From Chloropicon primus (Eukaryota > Chlorophyta > Chloropicophyceae > Chloropicales > Chloropicaceae), in NCBI GenBank assembly GCA_023205875.1, contig CP060762.1, forward strand, positions 682,001 to 746,000: 64,000 nucleotides of DNA, given 5' to 3'. The notes under the pieces are model-generated. The model saw only the letters and a list, made by a program, of their open reading frames with translations. It searched no databases and was not told the DNA's origin. This document shows, in pieces, positions 21,266-37,551 of this stretch. The translations under genes and the position numbers were made by a program. How positions within the stretch are numbered: the stretch's first letter is position 1; every line of letters starts with the position of its first letter.

Positions 21266-23462
21266 TCAGTACGACTTCTCCACGGAGCTCAGGAGGTAGC
21301 TCACCATGAACCCCTTGCCCTTCACCTGGACCTTGCGAGGCTCCCACGAGAACCCGAGCTTGTCGCACACCAATTCGTACGTGGACTGGGAGATCTGCAT
21401 CCGACCCGGAACCCCCGTGGACTCCATCCTGCTCGCCGTGTTCACCGTGTCCCCGAACAAGCAAAACCTCGGCATCCTACTTCCGACCACGCCGGAGCAT
21501 ACGTCCCCAGTGTGGATTCCGGCTCTCACTTGACAATTCTTGCCGTTCGGCATGACGAGCCTCCCGGCCGTCTCCAGCGCCTCCTTCCCGAACTTCACGG
21601 CCGCAAATGCGCTGGCGCTGGCGTGAAGCTTGGAGTCGTCCTTGAAGCTCATGGTCGCCATCGCACTGCCCCTCTCCTTCTTCCTCTTCTTCCAGGAGCC
21701 GGCGCTCGGCAGGCGGTCCAAGGACGGATGATCCCCCCCAGCATCGTCATCGCAGTCCTCGTCCTCCTCGACGACATCGAGGCCCGCGGCCACCATGAAC
21801 GCGTCGCCAATGGTCTCCACCTTCCACAGGTTCGTGTCCCTGTCGACCAAGCCGTCGAACGCCGTGAAGAGGTTGTGCAAGAAGGCCATGACCGAGTACG
21901 GCGGGCACTCGTTCGACATGCTTGTGAACCCGACGATGTCCGAGAAGAATATCGTCACCTCCTGGTGCATTCTCGCGACGGTGCGCCCGATGTTGTTGAA
22001 ATCCATGCCTTGGTCCCCTTCCCCCTCTTGGCCGCAGCCTTCCTCGCCCCTGACCGAGGCGTCCCTGATCGAGGCGCTCTCCTTGATGAGCTGCCTCGCG
22101 ATGACTTTCGGGAAGATTTGACTGATCAAGGCCTCCTGCCTCTCCTTCTCCCGAAGCAGCAGCTCCTCCCGCTCCTTTGCGCTCTTGATGGCGTGCTCCT
22201 GCTGCAAGTTGATGACTTCCCTGTCGCAGAACTGGTCCCTGCTCTTCTTGTCCTCGATGTACGACAGCGTGACGGTCAGCACGGCGACGGCCGTTATGTA
22301 GAACAACAGGCCGCACGTAGCGAAGTAGGCGTCCGCTTTGAGGGCCGCTGGATTCCCCCCGACTTCCTCATCGATGTTCAAGATGTAGTCGCTCGGCTCG
22401 ACCATAAAGATGCTGCCGGCGATCTGACCCCACTGGAAAGCCAACATCCAGGCGCAGACCTCCAAGGCATAGTAAAACGGCATCGCCGCAACGAGCACAG
22501 TGAAGTAGTAGCTCAGGAAAAAAAAGATGTTTTGCGCGATCCACCCATTCCTGCCGAAGAGGATCCTGAGCATGACGCCCACTGTCATCACGACCACCGA
22601 AATGGGGCTTCCTTGATACACTTCGTCCTCGTTCGATATGCCCATGTTGTCGGACGACATGTTGGGCATGGATTGGACTGCGATGGGGGAGGGAAACGAG
22701 GTAGAGTAGAGTCAATTGAACCGCAATCCCACGCGCGAGCGCGAGGTCCAATCGTGTCTTACCAAATAAAGTGGAGAGGCTCAGAGCGAGCTGCGTGACG
22801 TGATACACGTGGTTCTTGCTCTCGTACGTCTTGGACTCGTACATGTATATGCAGATGAAGTACCCAATGATCAGCGGCGCGGCTGCCGTCACGGAATAAC
22901 CCAGGCCTTTGAGCGCAGCGGTGCTTCCCAAGTACTCTGGGTCTCCGTCTTGGCTCGTTATCCCTTTGTAGATGGCCCAAAGCAGAGGCACAACGAGGGT
23001 GAGCAGCAGGGCGAGGGCGTAGGCCATGTATACCCTCGCCCGCTGCGTGGAGGCCAGACAACCCAAGTACTTTCTCTCGAGATTCCTGTCCTTGAAGGAG
23101 GACAGCCTGAACCGCTTGGGCTCCACGAACCTGGACCAGCGAATTGAGGAAAGGCGTCAGAAAGGAATGCAGTGCAGTGCAGGCTGCTGAGCACAAGACG
23201 ACGATTGAGCTGACAGCCTCCATCTCTAGGGCCATGGACGAGCGCTCCTCCTCGTGCCTCTCCTCCTCTGTCTCTTGTCTCTGTCACACACCCACACACA
23301 CGCACGCACGAACACACACACGCCCACGCCACAAGTTCCGTTCCATGGTGTCCCCACTCACGTTCCCTTGTCAAAATCGATGTTCTCCTTGAAGTCGTAA
23401 TCCTCCTTGTGCATGCACCGAAGGCAGCACGGAAGCTGCTTGACCAGATTCACAAACGCCAT
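21266..23462 (-). CDS. Multi-pass membrane guanylate cyclase (class III)
   Basis: Exons 23362-23462, 22763-23130 and 21266-22677 (phases 2 and 1; GTGAGT and GTAAGA donors) give 626 residues. The N-terminal half has about five hydrophobic segments (for example residues 55-78, 95-120 and a final one near LLFYITAVAVLTVTL), followed by a coiled helix (EREELLLREKERQEAL) and the catalytic domain. Metal-binding Asp residues lie in FFSDIVGFT and in VETIGDAF. The base-selecting residues are Glu (KVETIGD) and Cys (FCLFGD), the guanylate-cyclase pair; VNTASRM supplies the transition-state Asn and Arg. Homodimer activity making cGMP is expected. An insertion of about 60 residues after VAAGLDV is unusual. 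The ATG at 23462 is 199 bases from a divergent permease gene. Confidence 0.9.
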
Positions 23463-29657: not shown

Positions 29658-32600
29658 TTACATGGAGGAGAGTTGCCCAGTCAAAGAGGATGCAGTTGTA
29701 GTTTCGTCCTGGATCTTGGCCTCGATGGACTTCAACTCCTCCTGGAGCTGGTCCTTCTTCAACAGCATTTTCTTCAATGCGGCGTTCTGGAGCACGCCCA
29801 AGGTGCTCACGTGACCTTGGTTGATCCAACTGTTCGTATGGGCCCTCTTGATGGGGTCCTCGTTCCCCTGGTGGCCCGAGTGTTTTGTGTGCGAGTACTC
29901 GGACAAGGAAAGAGCCCACTTCAGGTCCTCCTTCTTGGTGAAGGACAAGAGCAGCCTCCTTGGGATATCCAAGATTTTGGAGAGGGAGTAAGGAGGCGAT
30001 CCCGCATCACCATCCTCGGCCGAGCCGTCGTTGCCACCGCCCTCCTCCACCAACTCCGCGATCCAAGGCAAGCATTGCGTCTTTCTGATCTCCAGCAGGC
30101 GCTGAAGATTCTCGCGGGTCGTGCTCCCCAGGGCCTCGAACAGCAGAGACCTCGGGAGGAGGAGAAGCTCTTCGACGCTCGCCAAGTTGTCCCCACAGAG
30201 CTCGGACATCCAAATGAGGTGCTTCTCTTCGACCGCGACCGCGACGTCCACAAAGGCGATCATCTCCTCCTCCGGGCGAGAGGCCAGGAGTTCCGCGAGC
30301 ATATCGAAGAGGTGCAAGGGGTCCTGGTGCGGGACGCTCAGGGAGACTTTCTTCCATGACAGCAGCATGGCGCGCGGCCTGTCCAAAACATCTTGGAGAG
30401 TCTTGCTCTGCAAGATGTCGGCAAAAAAGCGGCTGAACCTTTCATCACTCTCGTCGTGCAGGGCGAGCAACTTCAAAAGCTCGTCCTCGGTGTCGACCTC
30501 ATCCAAGATCTCCCTTGATATTCCCCGAATCATGGCAAAGTAGTCGCACTTTGCGTCGATGACGGACGACGGAGAGGATTTGGTGCTGACCACTTCATCC
30601 AGCAGGAGCGGAATTTGCGTCTCCTCCAGCTCAACAACGAGGCGGGCGTCCTCGATGGACTCCACGTGGCGCCCAAGTCTTGTTGGGAACCGCTCCACCG
30701 ACCCGATGTCAGCTTTCAGCTCCTCAAGCATCACCAACAACTCATTGTCATGCTTCGCGATCTGGTAAAAGGCGTCGCTCGTAAAGATTCGCCTCGAGAT
30801 GTGTTCGAGTTGGCCAATCCTCAAGATCTCGTCCAACTGGACGCACTGGGGTTCGCTCATCATAAGCTCTTCCACGAGGGCGAGAGGGAGGCCGCACTCG
30901 ATCAATCCCTCGAGATGCTCTTTCTTTTCAACTTTCTCCAGCAACGCCCCGAGGGCAAGAATGTCTTGCAGGGAGATCTCGTCATTGGATTGGAGGACTT
31001 GCTCACTCAGCTCCCTGACCTCGGGCTTTAGTCTCGCCACTGCGGCCAAATCCTTCTCCGTCTCTGCCTGCTGAACAAAGGTGCTCGGAATGTCCTGCAA
31101 GTCCTCCAGCTTGGACCCGGCCGCCATCAACGAACTCATCCAGTTCAGCAAAAGGATGTGGCCAGGCGGTCGCAACCAGTAAGTCCGCATGATTCCTTTG
31201 CCCTTCACATTGGCCTCCCCCCTGTACTGGGTCTGCAGAGCTGGGTCTTGGATTTCCAACCTTTTCTTCGTTTGGCTTGATATCTGGATCATTCCCGATT
31301 GGCTGGTGCTCTCCATCCGGCTCGCAACGTTTACGGAGTCTCCGAACAGGGTATATCTGGGATTCAAATCTCCTACGACGCTCGCCACGACAGGCCCCGA
31401 ATGGATCCCCAACCTGATGTTGATGTAACCAAAGGATTCGTCGAGGGTGGACACTTGGATCGTTCCTGCCACCTCGACCATTTCAAGGGCCATCCTGCAG
31501 ACTCTTGCGGCGTGATCGCTTTGGGCCGCCGGCACTCCTCCTACAACCATGTAAGCGTCCCCGATGGTCTCCACCTTGAAGAGATTGTGCCTTCTCGTAA
31601 GGGCGTCAAAGGCGCTGTAAAGCCTGTCCAGCATCGACATGACCTCCTTCGGAGCAAACGCCGACGAGATCGTCGTGTAGCCCACGATGTCGGAAAACAG
31701 AATGCTGACATCTTCAAAGTGTTCCGGCTCGACTGGCCTTCCCTCTTGCAGCGCAAGGGCGACGTGCTCCGGGAGCATCTTGTTCACCAACTGGACGGAC
31801 CGGTGCAAAGCTCCACCGCCAGAGCGACTCTTTGGGTTCTGGTCCAACCAGGTCTGGAGCTGACCCAAAATTGACCCAAAATCTGGTCGGTCCTCGGGAT
31901 TTTGCGACCAGCACTTTTCCATCAGAACCTGCATCGGGGCAGGGCAGCTTCCGGGCAAAGGAGGTCTAAGACTGCCGTCCTTGATCCCGTCCAGGACGCT
32001 CTCCTCGTCGAAGCCATCGTAAACGTCCGTCCTGGAGAAGGTCTCCCACATTAAGATTCCAAAGCTATAAATGTCGCTCTTTGTCGTGTTGGGCTCCCCC
32101 ACAAGAACCTCTGGCGCGCACCAATAGGGAGTTCCGATGCGGTTGCTCTCGCCCATGGCATCAAGAATTAAGGAATGCCCAAAGTCTCCCACTTTCACCG
32201 TCCATCGATCATCCAGAAGCATGTTCTTGCTCTTGATGTCGGCGTGAATGATTGGCGGCTTCTGGTTGTGGAGAAAGGCCATTCCCTTTGCCACCTCGTG
32301 CAAGAAGGTAACCTGCTGCACTTGGTCTAGGATAACCGTCGGGTTCATCAAGGTGTCCCACAAGGTGCCCCGAGACATGTACTCACTGACGATATAAATC
32401 GAGTCCAAGGGATGCTCACCAAGAAGCGAATCTTCTGTGTGCATGGAAGGAAAGCTGCCCGTGCTCCCATGGGCGCTCCCATTCACCTCTCTCGACTTCG
32501 ATCTCGCACTGAGGGACGACATGCTGCCCCACGTCCTCGTTCTCTTCTTTTCGAGGCCGATGAACGCCCCCATAAATAGGCGGATGTTCGGGTGCCTGAG

Positions 32601-35303
32601 CTTAAAGAGCATCTGGATCTCGTGCTGCAGGACTGTTGCTCCCGATGATCTGTTGCTCTTCCCGCTGCTTCCTGTCCTGCTATTTCGAGAGCCGTCCGCC
32701 CACTTCTTTTCCTCCCGGTCAATTTGTTTGATGACCACGTTCGCTCCTTTGTAAGTGCCTTGAAAAGTTTGCCCCGAGGCGCCCGAGCCAAGCAGTCTAT
32801 GAAATTCCAAATCCTCGAAGTTGATTTTCCACGTGCTCATCAACGCGTCCTCCTTCGTCTTCTTCAAGCGGCTCCAGACAACAAATCCCCCAAGGATGGA
32901 GAGAAGCAGAACTGCACCAAGTATTCCTCCGATTATTCCCCCCAGCTGCCTTTTGTCCTGGAAGGCACCGTTGCCCTCAGCTGCCAACTCAGGTTGAACT
33001 CCGCAAGTTGTCCAAGAAAACTTCTCGAGCTCCTCCGAGTCCGTTCGCAGCCACAAGTTGCTCGCTCCTGAGTTGCAGTAGCCAGGCCCGTCAAGGTAAG
33101 GTCCAAGCTGCAAGCCGTCGATGTTAAAGTATTCCTGGGCGTACACTGTTGAGATGAAATTCTCCCTTCCCTCTTCGATGCCTTGGGGCCTCCCCTCGTT
33201 CAGGTACGCACTCGACAGGACCTGAACCACGAACTGGCCTTGAATGTATCCAAGGAAAGAGGCTTCAGAAGGAATCATTCCCGGGTCATAGCTTTTGAGA
33301 GCAAACTGGAAGCCCTTTACCAAAAGGCTGTCATCCCCCGTGGATCGATTCAAAGCGGGCACGGGACTTGTGGTGACAACTTGACCAGTCCCGTTCAGCA
33401 AGCCAAGCTCCTCCTCGCTCAAAAGGGGTACTCCCACGAACTGAATGCCTGGCGCGGAGCCGAGCACATTGATGGTCTGCTCAACGGGGCACGCGATTAT
33501 GAGTGCCTCCGATCCCTGGACCTTCGCGACGTCCGCGTCAGTGACGCCAGAGGCTGGGGCTGCGGACAAGTCCACAGATGCCCACGCTCCATCGAGTTGG
33601 ATGGATTGAAAATCCCTCGAGCAGAACACAAAACTGGTTTTCTTCGAGTACTCTGTCGAAAAGAGGTGGTACAACGCATACACTTCGTCGTCGCTGGATG
33701 GCTCGATGTTGATCACGTTTTCACAATTCTCTGCGCAATCTCTAAGCTTCATCGACGAGGTGCGTGGCGCAATCAACGGGATCTTCCCGCCGAGGAGAGG
33801 CAGCACTGCCAGAGACGTGTTTGTCCCCACCCACCCGATCAATCCGACAACCCTGTCCTCTTCCAAAAGCTTGAGCGTATTGTCGACAGCCAACTCGGGT
33901 TGATTTTGGTCATCATAAGAGATCACCTCGAGGAGGAATCCCCCCACGCCGCCCGCTAAATTCGCTTCCTGGAAGGCAGCACGAATGCCCGATTGGATTC
34001 CCTCCCCAAGAGCTTTTCCTTCCCCAGACAGGACTGCAGACTGGCCGAACGAAAGGACTTCGGGCTTTGGGGCCTCGTACCCACAGGTTCCGAACTGGAA
34101 ATTGAAGTCAAGCAACTGGTATTCTCCCGACTGGGCGTTCATGTCCGTTAGCCAGATCTCCCTCATTCCCTGGTTGCACTGGCATCCCGTGGATATCTGA
34201 GAGCAGTTGCCGCCGTACGGGCCAAGTCTGAAACTGTCTTCGCCCTCACCGGCGCCGATGTCCACTACCCCGTCATAAATCGTTTCCAGGAAAGCGCCCA
34301 CGTCGTCTCGCATCAGCGAGTCCTCGTCCATCTTCTGAAGGCTCGTCACAGCAAGCCGTCCCGCCATATATCCTTCGTATTCTACGAATCCGGGGTTCAA
34401 CGCGGGATCCAGGGCCTTCAAGGCGCTCTGGAACCTCCTGGTGAGATCCAAGGAGCGGTCCGTCGGCAAGGGCACGACCTGGGACACGACGACCCCCTCC
34501 CTCGAGTTTGCACTGCCCAGCGCCTCGGAGAAGGCATCGGCCCCGACAAAGCTGACTGTGGAGAAGCTGATGTCGTCGTCAGGATACATTTCTTTCGTCT
34601 CGTTGACGAACTTGGCAAGCTGCGTGTACGTGCCGATCATCACGACGGCCTCCGGCGGGATGGGTTTGCTGAAAACCGCGTCGAATCCCCCTTGGATTGA
34701 ATCCGAGTTCCTCTCGTACGTGCCCTCCGAGTACAGCTTGAGGGAGACACCATCGAGCGCCTGCTGCACGCCGGCCAAACCCGCGCCACCGAAGCTGTCG
34801 TTCTGATAAAATATCGATATTCTTGCCTTCTTCTGCTTCTTCACGAAATACTCGATCATAGCGGCCGTCTCGTCGTTGTAACTGCCCCTCACGTTCACCA
34901 CGTCCTCCTTCCAGGGCTGTCTCAGGAACATGGCTCCCGTGAACGGCGCAAGGAAGGGGACGCCGTAGTCCTCCACCAAAGGCAGCACGCTCGCGCTGGT
35001 CGGCGTCCCGACTTCTCCGATGAGAGCGAAGACTTGGTCGTCCTCGATGAGCCTCCGGGTGTTCGCGAGGGCGGGGCCCGGCTCGTAGCCGTCGTCGTAC
35101 GAGATGAGCTCGAGCTCTCGACCTCCGACCTCCCCCGCCTCCTTGAACGCTGCAAGGATGCCGTTTCGCATTCCCTGGCCGAGCGCCCTCGCCGGCCCCG
35201 TCAACGCGCAGCTCTGTCCGAACGTGATCGTCGTCTTGTTCGATGCTCCGGCACAACCCCCCAGGAGCATCAGCAGCACCAGGACCAAGGCCACCCCCCT
35301 CAT
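29658..35303 (-). CDS. Receptor kinase-cyclase: two solute-binding-protein-like ligand domains, TM, kinase, class III cyclase, helical repeat tail
   Basis: One exon, 1,881 residues from the ATG at 35303, which opens a signal peptide (MRGVALVLVLLMLLGGCAG); the frame continues upstream only through a GTG and an ATG at 35375. Ligand domains lie at residues about 25-400 and 416-780, each with FGQS, LSG/LTG and a YDD segment, like type I periplasmic binding proteins. One TM spans about 786-810. The kinase, about 828-1153, keeps GSGASG, the Lys of VVIKQ, HADIKSKN (catalytic Asp), DFG and APE, and resembles the TKL class. The cyclase, about 1200-1376, has FSDIVGYT and VETIGDAYM metal-binding Asp residues; the nucleotide selectors read Glu and Thr (RYTLFGD). 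Residues about 1377-1881 form a helical repeat tail. Confidence 0.92.
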   Translation of the reverse strand: MRGVALVLVLLMLLGGCAGASNKTTITFGQSCALTGPARALGQGMRNGILAAFKEAGEVGGRELELISYDDGYEPGPALANTRRLIEDDQVFALIGEVGTPTSASVLPLVEDYGVPFLAPFTGAMFLRQPWKEDVVNVRGSYNDETAAMIEYFVKKQKKARISIFYQNDSFGGAGLAGVQQALDGVSLKLYSEGTYERNSDSIQGGFDAVFSKPIPPEAVVMIGTYTQLAKFVNETKEMYPDDDISFSTVSFVGADAFSEALGSANSREGVVVSQVVPLPTDRSLDLTRRFQSALKALDPALNPGFVEYEGYMAGRLAVTSLQKMDEDSLMRDDVGAFLETIYDGVVDIGAGEGEDSFRLGPYGGNCSQISTGCQCNQGMREIWLTDMNAQSGEYQLLDFNFQFGTCGYEAPKPEVLSFGQSAVLSGEGKALGEGIQSGIRAAFQEANLAGGVGGFLLEVISYDDQNQPELAVDNTLKLLEEDRVVGLIGWVGTNTSLAVLPLLGGKIPLIAPRTSSMKLRDCAENCENVINIEPSSDDEVYALYHLFSTEYSKKTSFVFCSRDFQSIQLDGAWASVDLSAAPASGVTDADVAKVQGSEALIIACPVEQTINVLGSAPGIQFVGVPLLSEEELGLLNGTGQVVTTSPVPALNRSTGDDSLLVKGFQFALKSYDPGMIPSEASFLGYIQGQFVVQVLSSAYLNEGRPQGIEEGRENFISTVYAQEYFNIDGLQLGPYLDGPGYCNSGASNLWLRTDSEELEKFSWTTCGVQPELAAEGNGAFQDKRQLGGIIGGILGAVLLLSILGGFVVWSRLKKTKEDALMSTWKINFEDLEFHRLLGSGASGQTFQGTYKGANVVIKQIDREEKKWADGSRNSRTGSSGKSNRSSGATVLQHEIQMLFKLRHPNIRLFMGAFIGLEKKRTRTWGSMSSLSARSKSREVNGSAHGSTGSFPSMHTEDSLLGEHPLDSIYIVSEYMSRGTLWDTLMNPTVILDQVQQVTFLHEVAKGMAFLHNQKPPIIHADIKSKNMLLDDRWTVKVGDFGHSLILDAMGESNRIGTPYWCAPEVLVGEPNTTKSDIYSFGILMWETFSRTDVYDGFDEESVLDGIKDGSLRPPLPGSCPAPMQVLMEKCWSQNPEDRPDFGSILGQLQTWLDQNPKSRSGGGALHRSVQLVNKMLPEHVALALQEGRPVEPEHFEDVSILFSDIVGYTTISSAFAPKEVMSMLDRLYSAFDALTRRHNLFKVETIGDAYMVVGGVPAAQSDHAARVCRMALEMVEVAGTIQVSTLDESFGYINIRLGIHSGPVVASVVGDLNPRYTLFGDSVNVASRMESTSQSGMIQISSQTKKRLEIQDPALQTQYRGEANVKGKGIMRTYWLRPPGHILLLNWMSSLMAAGSKLEDLQDIPSTFVQQAETEKDLAAVARLKPEVRELSEQVLQSNDEISLQDILALGALLEKVEKKEHLEGLIECGLPLALVEELMMSEPQCVQLDEILRIGQLEHISRRIFTSDAFYQIAKHDNELLVMLEELKADIGSVERFPTRLGRHVESIEDARLVVELEETQIPLLLDEVVSTKSSPSSVIDAKCDYFAMIRGISREILDEVDTEDELLKLLALHDESDERFSRFFADILQSKTLQDVLDRPRAMLLSWKKVSLSVPHQDPLHLFDMLAELLASRPEEEMIAFVDVAVAVEEKHLIWMSELCGDNLASVEELLLLPRSLLFEALGSTTRENLQRLLEIRKTQCLPWIAELVEEGGGNDGSAEDGDAGSPPYSLSKILDIPRRLLLSFTKKEDLKWALSLSEYSHTKHSGHQGNEDPIKRAHTNSWINQGHVSTLGVLQNAALKKMLLKKDQLQEELKSIEAKIQDETTTASSLTGQLSSM

Positions 35304-35964
35304 CCCTCTGCGCTGCTGAAACGAAACTCTATCGCGTTCGTCGCGTCCTTGCCGATTCCTGGTCCAGCAATCCATCCCCAAAGCATCCACCCAACACCAA
35401 GTCTATCCAAACAAAGGAAGGAGAAGAAGGCAAACGTGTTTTGGCCCAAGACAGTGGGCTGCTGCTGCTGCTGCTGCTGCTCCTCTCCTCTGTCGTCCTA
35501 GTTTTCGCTTCGTGGGTCGCGTCGTTGCCGAACCCAGCAGTCACAAAGGGAACGGCAATGGCAATGGCAAGGGGAAGCGCAAGGGGAAGCGCAAGGGGTA
35601 GGGCTTGAGGTTGTTCCTCCGGCCTCTTCCTCTCCTCTTCCTCGCCTCTCCATCGGTTACGACCGGGGTGGTACGAGGAGTGTACGCCCCATTACACCGT
35701 TGACCCTTGATCCCAAGGAAAGGATTAGGATTCAGAAAATTAACAGGCGAGTACGAAGACGAGGACCAGGACGTTGGCGAGGACCTTGGCCGGGAGGGAG
35801 GCAAACGCATTGGCTTGAAGGAAGGGAGGGAGGGATACCCGACCAATCCACGCACCTGCCCGGCCGCCAACTCATTGGGACTTTTTTTTTGTGTTGTTGT
35901 TGGTTTGGCGGAACCTGACCCTGACCCTGACCCTGACCTGACCCTGACCCTGAGGTGACGAAAG
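35304..35964. promoter_or_regulatory. Divergent promoter region between receptor cyclase and LRR gene
   Basis: About 660 bases with no gene I can support. It carries a (CTG)n run near 35460-35482, a (GCAAGGGGAA)-type short repeat near 35560-35605, a T run at about 35882-35890 and a CCTGAC hexamer array at 35913-35953 that ends 12 bases before the LRR start codon. Confidence 0.5.
35913..35953 (+). repeat. CCTGAC/CCCTGA hexamer array
   Basis: Six to seven consecutive copies of CCTGAC (one unit with a missing C) sit directly in front of the LRR gene start codon, probably in its 5' untranslated region. Confidence 0.85.
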
Positions 35965-37551
35965 ATGGTGGAGGAGCTTCAGGACTTGGCGGTGGAGGGG
36001 GAGACGAGTGGGTTTATAAGGGAGCAGCTCCTGATGCAAAAGAACAGCGGGGTCCTGGCCTCCAGCACGGACGAGGAGGAGCTGTTGAACGAGGTGCCGG
36101 AGCCAAGGGAAGTGAGCAGCAGGGACTTTATTAGCGACGGGGAGGTGAGCGCCTCTGGAAGCGGGTTGATCAACGGGTTCACGATTCTGGCAGCGGCGAG
36201 GGCGCGCCTGCCCGAGGAGGTCCACGTTGCGGACCTCTCCGGCCAGGGGTACGACACCTTCGAGGAGGAGGACCTGGAGTACTTCCACAACTTGAGGCTG
36301 CTGGACTTGAGCGACAACCGCCTCGGGAGCGTGGAGGAGCTGAGTCGGCTGAGGCTGACCGAGCTCAGGGCTCCCGTGAACAACCTGAGGGAGCTCAACG
36401 TGAGCTTCAGAGGGGCCTTCGCCAGCCTCAAGGTCCTTGACGTGTCTTACAACGAGCTCGGGCCAAAGGCGCTGGAGGAGCTCTCGACGCTGTCCAGTCT
36501 GACCAAGCTGGACATGTCAGGGAACAACTTGGGTGGGCTGGAGAGGCTTGGGCTCAAGCCCCTCTCCGGATTCCCCAGACTCCGCACCCTCGTCTTGGAA
36601 CAGGCCAAGCTTCGGTCCACGGACTTGACCAAGCTGAAGCAAATCCCGTGGCTGTCCGAGCTCAAGATGGCCAACAACCCCATCGAGGAGATCCCCCCGC
36701 AGTGCGAGGGCGGGTTTGCTTCCCTTGAGGTCATCGACTTGAGCTTCTGCGCCTTGCTGATGCTCGACAGCGTCGCCGTGGCGCAGGACTTCCCCAAACT
36801 GCGCAAGGTGCTGATGCACGGCAACAACATCTTGCCCCAAGGCAGGCTGTCGCGCCACCCGCTGAGTTCCAAGGTCTCCCTGGAGAAGGAGGACAAGGGC
36901 CTCGGCCTTGCCGCGAGGAAGAAGGGCTTCACCGTGTCGCAGATGTACAACATAAACATGAAGAAGGCTGACCTGGTGACGCCGAACTCGAGGATGCAAG
37001 CGTTTTGCAACTTGACGGAGGAGGAGATCGACGAGGCCTTTGAGAGGCTCAAGGACCCAATGTCCATCTTCAGCGCGGAGGACTACGAGACGGTGGAGGG
37101 GGCGAGCACGAGCCAGGGCGAGGGGGAGAAGGAGGAGGAATCTTCGACTTTCTTGACGAGCCTGGTGGAGGAGGAGGACCAGAGCGAGTCGGAGGCCCAG
37201 GAGGAGCTGGATCCGTCCAGCAAGCTCGCAAAGGCGTTTGGCCTCGACCCGGGAAAGATATTTTCGGTGGATCACTTGGGTCTGGACGCGACCGCGGCAA
37301 TCAATGCCCTCAAGTTCGCCCTGAACCACCCTCTGGTGGACTACAACGACACGGGAAAGATCGAGCATCACATGAAGCTCACGGAGAGCGCGCAGAGGAG
37401 GAAGCTCGAAACGAGGAGGATAAGCTCCGCGGTGACGACGAGCAAGCCCAAGGCCTCGAAGAGGAAGGAGGCAATCCAGGACATGCTGGCGCGGATGAAG
37501 GAGAAGCTTGCCATCGCCAAGGAAAAGATTGCCGCTGTTCCGGCCTCCTGA
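35965..37551 (+). CDS. Leucine-rich repeat protein, XRRA1-like
   Basis: Single exon, 528 residues, ATG at 35965. Residues about 85-310 hold around eight to nine SDS22-like leucine-rich repeats (LRLLDLSDNRLGSVEEL, LKVLDVSYNELGPKAL, LTKLDMSGNNLGGLERL). The layout, with a first unit VHVADLSGQGYDTFEEEDLEYF that closely recalls the SNQLLSSVKEEDF strand of animal XRRA1, suggests the XRRA1 family. That match is from memory and only moderate. The C-terminal third is acidic, then ends in a basic helix (RKEAIQDMLARMKEKLAIAKEKIA). No catalytic domain is seen. LRRs bind partners; cytosolic or nuclear location is likely since no signal peptide is present. Confidence 0.8.
   Translation: MVEELQDLAVEGETSGFIREQLLMQKNSGVLASSTDEEELLNEVPEPREVSSRDFISDGEVSASGSGLINGFTILAAARARLPEEVHVADLSGQGYDTFEEEDLEYFHNLRLLDLSDNRLGSVEELSRLRLTELRAPVNNLRELNVSFRGAFASLKVLDVSYNELGPKALEELSTLSSLTKLDMSGNNLGGLERLGLKPLSGFPRLRTLVLEQAKLRSTDLTKLKQIPWLSELKMANNPIEEIPPQCEGGFASLEVIDLSFCALLMLDSVAVAQDFPKLRKVLMHGNNILPQGRLSRHPLSSKVSLEKEDKGLGLAARKKGFTVSQMYNINMKKADLVTPNSRMQAFCNLTEEEIDEAFERLKDPMSIFSAEDYETVEGASTSQGEGEKEEESSTFLTSLVEEEDQSESEAQEELDPSSKLAKAFGLDPGKIFSVDHLGLDATAAINALKFALNHPLVDYNDTGKIEHHMKLTESAQRRKLETRRISSAVTTSKPKASKRKEAIQDMLARMKEKLAIAKEKIAAVPAS

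Follow-up and report, generated by a model that had tools for sequence, protein, structure and literature searches.

A predicted receptor of the green alga Chloropicon primus joins tandem bacterial-type ligand domains to an intact-looking kinase and a guanylate-type cyclase

Active kinase–cyclase proteins were reportedly described in mimivirus by Biswas et al. in 2009. For the receptor guanylate cyclases (rGCs) of animals, the kinase homology domain (KHD) is stated to have no kinase activity (PMC1435932), and a signalling helix downstream of a Ser/Thr kinase is described in PMC1592074 only for animal receptor cyclases, in which the kinase is apparently inactive. Chloropicon primus is a chlorophyte of the class Chloropicophyceae, and the first genome paper for this species, on strain CCMP1205, gives 30 guanylyl cyclases (PMC6731263). 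The assembly of strain RCC138 has a haploid size of 17,584,162 bp in 20 chromosomes, the longest being 1,855,637 bp; it is chromosome-level and short-read polished, and a single chromosome end, on chromosome 1, lacks telomere repeats (PMC12301720). Herein we describe a gene from a 64,000 nt stretch of C. primus DNA (the window; C9:682001-746000), for which an earlier, sequence-only reading had proposed that a single chain carries tandem bacterial-type ligand domains, a cyclase and a kinase with intact motifs. Pfam searches and alignment bear this architecture out.

The gene lies on the minus strand, within a single stop-free frame of 1914 codons (window 29658..35402). Amongst the six possible frames, this one is preferred by codon usage in each of the seven segments into which the chain beyond residue 33 was divided, whilst residues 1–33 show no such preference; the start is therefore likely to be Met34 (window 35303), at which a hydrophobic, signal-peptide-like run begins. 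A Pfam search with the whole protein returned Peripla_BP_6 in two stretches (E 1.6e-56), PK_Tyr_Ser-Thr (E 1.6e-43) and Guanylate_cyc (E 5.1e-58), with both Peripla_BP_6 stretches recovered again by a whole-genome profile search. Beyond the signal peptide, hydropathy reveals a sole strong hydrophobic helix in the chain (Table 1). Read from the sequence, the protein has an export signal, two periplasmic binding protein (PBP) domains, D1 and D2, on the outside, one membrane helix, and the kinase, linker, cyclase and tail on the inside. The opposite-strand neighbour upstream (window 35959-37551, plus) is a frame for a leucine-rich-repeat protein of 530 residues.

Table 1. Features of the receptor gene (window positions) and of its two paralogues (positions within their own loci)
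Feature	Position	Strand	Evidence
Whole coding frame, Met34 to stop, 1881 residues	29658..35303	-	Single open frame; codon preference
Signal peptide, residues 34-53	35244..35303	-	Hydrophobic run after Met34
D1, type-I PBP domain, residues 55-446	34065..35240	-	PF13458 at 58-374; 4kv7 E 2e-61; bacterial relatives; fold model
D2, diverged second PBP domain, residues 447-818	32949..34064	-	Second PF13458 stretch; 31% to D1
Transmembrane helix, residues 820-844	32871..32945	-	Highest hydropathy in the chain
Protein kinase domain, residues 860-1184, interrupted by two long inserts of low complexity; HAD loop, DFG, APE	31851..32825	-	PF07714, PF00069; paralogue alignment; CTR1 and NPR1 matches
Kinase–cyclase linker of the rGC type, residues 1187-1224	31731..31844	-	NPR1 cyclase match starts inside the linker, at residue 1203
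Class III cyclase domain, predicted guanylate type, residues 1225-1411	31170..31730	-	PF00211 E 5.1e-58; ETIGDAY, RYTLFGDSVN
C-terminal region, residues 1412-1914, probably helical, with a probable terminal coiled coil	29661..31169	-	No Pfam match; coding by codon preference; very-low-confidence model
C8 paralogue: ANF_receptor (93 bits), kinase, cyclase (Glu/Cys)	L015 2872-6597	-	Pfam
C4 paralogue: kinase, cyclase, ectodomain without any Pfam or PBP match	L022 1886-4867	-	Pfam

At least three kinase–cyclase receptors are present in the C. primus genome, each with a different ectodomain and all with the catalytic Asp of the kinase retained; this count covers frames that hold both kinase and cyclase, and further members with introns may exist. 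The sequence-only reading had recommended seeking homologues with the same order; both paralogues share the succession of membrane helix, kinase and cyclase. The frame of the C8 paralogue lacks the part that would match the opening third of the ANF_receptor profile, which probably lies in upstream exons. The cyclases of the three receptors group at 95/99 in a tree of 16 domains, in which the 13 others derive from 10 of 13 loci, several being partial and one spanning a stop read as X, with matches below approximately 120 residues dropped; an earlier tree, for which the pattern missed 8 of 12 loci, gave 75/82 for the same group. Their kinases group at 69/76 among 13 (66 % of bootstrap trees). 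The simplest reading is that one kinase–cyclase module is used with three ectodomains. Three further PBP-bearing frames occur in the genome, two with 7tm_3 (C9:45720 and C10:720134) and one with ANF_receptor and no 7tm_3 match (C5:376597). A PBP-like domain is joined to 7tm_3, the membrane domain of class C receptors, at L017 2675-5254 (plus) and L018 1226-3937 (minus).

Alignment of the kinase with those of the two paralogues identifies Lys892, Glu928, His-Ala-Asp1055, Asn1060, Asp1073-Phe-Gly and Ala-Pro-Glu1098, in agreement with the earlier claim that the Lys, the HxD Asp, DFG and APE are kept. The contrast drawn there with the kinase-like domain of animals also holds, NPR1 reading HGNLKSSN and DYG against HADIKSKN and DFG in the alga; as aligned, Asp1055 stands where animal rGCs have lost the catalytic Asp. 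Amongst PDB entries with a kinase but without a cyclase, the best match is CTR1, at 142 bits. The Arg of HRD is missing in all three algal receptors (HAD, HGD and HND), whereas each of the ten other kinases in the same tree reads HRD, as does L047, which was missed by the pattern and left out of the tree. In addition, the C8 paralogue has Asn at the place of the αC Glu, and the kinase of the receptor itself carries long inserts. Such features would suit a domain that keeps its motifs but serves chiefly as an ATP-sensing regulator, as in animal rGCs, with the cyclase as the sole output. Set against this, the receptor retains Lys, αC Glu, catalytic Asp, Asn, DFG and APE, and of these all but the αC Glu are common to all three paralogues, a state that would not be expected to survive drift; moreover, non-RD kinases can be active. 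A kinase confined to regulation is possible, then, but we regard it as doubtful.

The first ligand domain is, judged by its matches, bacterial in kind. The whole protein scores 192.9 bits with Peripla_BP_6 against a family cut-off of 31.7, and in the same Pfam search the eukaryotic ANF_receptor model gave no match to it at E ≤ 0.1. Compared with the PDB, D1 matches 33 distinct sequences at E ≤ 0.001, the best being 4kv7 of Rhodopirellula (E 2e-61), with no eukaryotic receptor named amongst the 33. A pattern search of species genomes yielded 40 stretches, of which 20 encode a relative of D1, 19 at 37–44 % identity and one at 24 %. Within the phylum Pseudomonadota, 38 of 299 genomes, the Roseibium genome of L024 (G001) included, match D1 at E ≤ 1e-40 with identities of 34–51 %, these counts being lower bounds as up to six candidates were scored per genome. 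Foldseek with a model of D1 and D2 (mean pLDDT 65.6, D1 being mostly of high confidence) returned 955 matches at E ≤ 0.001, led by 4kv7 with a TM-score of 0.84 on the length of the target and 0.42 on that of the query; nearly all of the best 50 of these 955 are named solute-binding proteins. From these identities and match lists, with the C. primus genome and PDB entries forming the eukaryotic side of the comparison, we infer transfer of the ectodomain from bacteria. The sequence-only reading had suggested a small ligand such as an amino acid, a proposal that the matches do not establish: D1 reaches only 39 of 477 bits with the branched-chain amino-acid subfamily model, amongst the structures retrieved by fold similarity are binders of urea and aromatic acids as well as of amino acids and other solutes, and no ligand turned up for the near relatives. 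In viral contigs, 34 pattern stretches contained no relative from giant viruses, which is a weak test given that it employed two short peptide patterns. Two candidates for tandem PBPs in one bacterial frame were rejected: a 1293 aa frame in genome G022 appeared to be open by chance around a PBP gene of the usual kind, the separate frame beside which was read by eye as a membrane sensor, and a neighbouring PBP pair in G252 comprises two frames rather than one.

The genes that accompany the bacterial relatives of D1 hint at their role. Nineteen frames downstream of the PBP, from 20 bacterial loci, were scanned, giving 12 matches to HisKA, 12 to HATPase_c, 3 to MCPsignal, 1 to GGDEF and 1 to EAL. 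One of the loci (L032) has no downstream frame, and at two others (L038 and L039) the second downstream frame was scanned, the first looking, on reading only, like another solute-binding protein. By our reading, up to 16 of the 19 neighbours are histidine kinases, chemoreceptors or one GGDEF/EAL protein, a figure which assumes that the HisKA and HATPase_c sets are the same 12, that GGDEF and EAL sit in a single protein and that no protein falls into two groups; most of the 12 histidine kinase neighbours come from close Nitrospirales relatives, and hence are not independent. The remaining neighbours include one N-6 DNA methylase and one DUF4175 protein. At several loci the PBP frame abuts the next frame. 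Taken together, this suggests that the bacterial relatives of D1 are PBPs that serve signalling, and hence that part of a sensor rather than of a transporter was taken over by the alga.

The second domain is a diverged copy, 31 % identical to the first. Across 76 columns that are invariant in six hand-picked bacterial rows, D1 keeps 63 and D2 keeps 37, with the disparity falling unevenly: in the first block D1 retains 34 of 36 and D2 26, in the middle block 13 of 18 and 2, and in the last block 16 of 22 and 9. The sequence-only reading had recommended modelling of both pockets; in the model most of D1 is of high confidence, whereas D2 reaches moderate confidence over roughly the initial third and one short stretch further on and is otherwise poor. 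The tandem arrangement in that reading stands, but D2 has lost most of the conserved residues of the middle block, so that the ligand binding by both domains which it implied, through two equal pockets, is doubtful. In PBP trees, from both of which the relative at 24 % identity (L043) was left out, D1 and D2 join on long branches with support of 91/75 and 64/64, the former from a tree in which one row (L024) overran its natural stop by a few residues, the latter with that row cut at the stop. Since the trees join the two domains, tandem duplication after capture is likely. Alternatively, D2 rather than D1 might be the specific sensor, having diverged for a new ligand whilst D1 was kept for the fold or a second signal. 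D2 adjoins the membrane and retains most of the first-block columns, but its losses in the middle and last blocks, where D1 keeps more, make such an exchange of roles unlikely. The assignment preferred here remains D1 as the sensor.

With respect to the output, the cyclase appears by its purine-specifying residues to be of the guanylate type: Glu is present, and the second place is held by Thr, whereas NPR1 has Cys. That Thr could be taken to mean that cAMP, alone or along with cGMP, is formed instead of chiefly cGMP. Thr, Cys and Ser are, however, all given for the second position of guanylate cyclases in PMC4215837, the Glu of such enzymes is in place, and the C8 sister cyclase has Glu with Cys (the C4 copy has Ser at the second position); synthesis other than mainly of cGMP is accordingly judged rather improbable. 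A cGMP route is plausible in this organism because seven PDEase_I matches are found in the genome and cNMP-binding domains are joined to kinases in frames such as those of 981 aa on C4, 935 aa on C7, 879 aa on C11, and 928 and 1359 aa on C9. The Guanylate_cyc profile gives 49 matches in the genome, several being partial or lying together in one frame. One such cyclase lies in the window itself (21266-22711, minus), where a 481-residue frame holds a second class III domain (Guanylate_cyc at 246-475, E 9e-48; RFCLFGDTVN). Two cyclase domains per frame were found by profile search at L020 2675-7438 (plus) and in L019 (minus), and cNMP-binding matches occur in frames of the same two lengths, 1588 and 1998 aa. 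Repeated cyclase matches of equal score at C7:767811-778951 and C15:362595-374588 suggest recent tandem copies.

The C-terminal region, which was absent from the sequence-only reading, is coding by codon preference. Neither Pfam (E ≤ 0.5) nor the rest of the genome (E ≤ 1) offers a match to its approximately 500 residues, and the model of the region is of very low confidence (mean pLDDT 38.6), a coiled coil being suggested at its very end. Internal repeats are suggestive only, as the best segment pair scores 47 where the best of shuffles reach up to 51 (mean 37.6), although the mean over the ten best pairs, 42.4, exceeds the highest such value, 37.4, in 30 shuffles. Whilst the want of relatives for these last residues, by Pfam or genome search, would agree with a long frame that joins two or more genes or hides introns, including the exon joining two separate genes which the sequence-only reading had itself raised, such an unreal fusion is highly improbable and is rejected in view of 1914 codons without a stop, codon preference in every segment from residue 34, the membrane helix–kinase–cyclase order repeated in two paralogues, and a chromosome-level, short-read-polished assembly (PMC12301720).

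The locus thus probably encodes a receptor-type kinase–guanylate cyclase in which D1 would be a sensor of bacterial derivation, D2 a spacer or dimer surface, and the kinase a means of tuning cGMP output. A bacterial sensory PBP would have been captured, doubled and placed on a kinase–cyclase module. In the resulting receptor, D1 may close around a small organic solute, much as its kin in bacteria would, and this closure would rearrange a homodimer in which D2, most likely, is not a sensor on a par with D1 but a spacer or dimer surface. The signal would then pass from the membrane helix through the kinase and the linker to the cyclase dimer, which would make cGMP, with the kinase phosphorylating its dimer partner, and perhaps other proteins, so as to set the gain of the cyclase. 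More tentatively, Chloropicon may keep an ancestral, kinase-active state of rGCs, one copy of which captured a bacterial sensory PBP and so came to produce both phosphorylation and cGMP from a bacterial-type cue. A receptor of the same order whose kinase looks intact offers a means to test whether phosphorylation and cGMP synthesis formerly cooperated. If the proposal is true, a eukaryotic receptor of a marine picoalga gained a new sense by way of the ligand portion of a sensory system from bacteria.

A literature search, by titles and the starts of abstracts amongst the matches listed, did not find this architecture in a green alga, and the receptor can be set beside several described systems. 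The bacterial TOMM kinase/cyclase fusion (TIGR03903) is alike in being named as a fusion of the two enzymes, and the algal protein reaches 92.3 bits with its best stretch in the kinase, but this is far under the family cut-off of 705.75 bits and places it outside that family. Bacterial PBPs beside histidine kinases and chemoreceptors resemble D1, at up to 44 % identity in the species genomes and 51 % in those of the phylum; there, however, the PBP occupies its own frame by the sensor gene, whereas in Chloropicon ligand domain and output form one chain. Receptor kinase–cyclases of Acanthamoeba and some giant viruses likewise combine an extracellular domain, one membrane helix, a Ser/Thr kinase and a cyclase in one chain, but are described with two kinases flanking the cyclase, in contrast to the single kinase before the cyclase in Chloropicon (PMC4053784). 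The receptor adenylate cyclases of trypanosomatids share two Venus-flytrap domains, one membrane helix and a class III cyclase, although the scheme given in PMC6027212 has no kinase domain and the enzymes are of the adenylate type. Animal rGCs such as NPR1 (GC-A) show the same plan, and over kinase and cyclase taken together no PDB entry matches better than NPR1: the extracellular PBP-I fold (here of a bacterial subtype, and doubled), the single membrane helix, and the kinase, linker and cyclase follow in the same order. Unlike them, the algal receptor has two Peripla_BP_6 ectodomains, a catalytic Asp, Thr as the second purine residue and a tail of 500 residues. It is named rGC-like here because a feature of the animal family, a kinase domain without activity (PMC1435932), does not apply to it as predicted. 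What appears to be new is the joint set, in a green alga and in the animal order, of bacterial sensory PBPs, an intact-looking kinase and a guanylate cyclase, the parts of which are known elsewhere.
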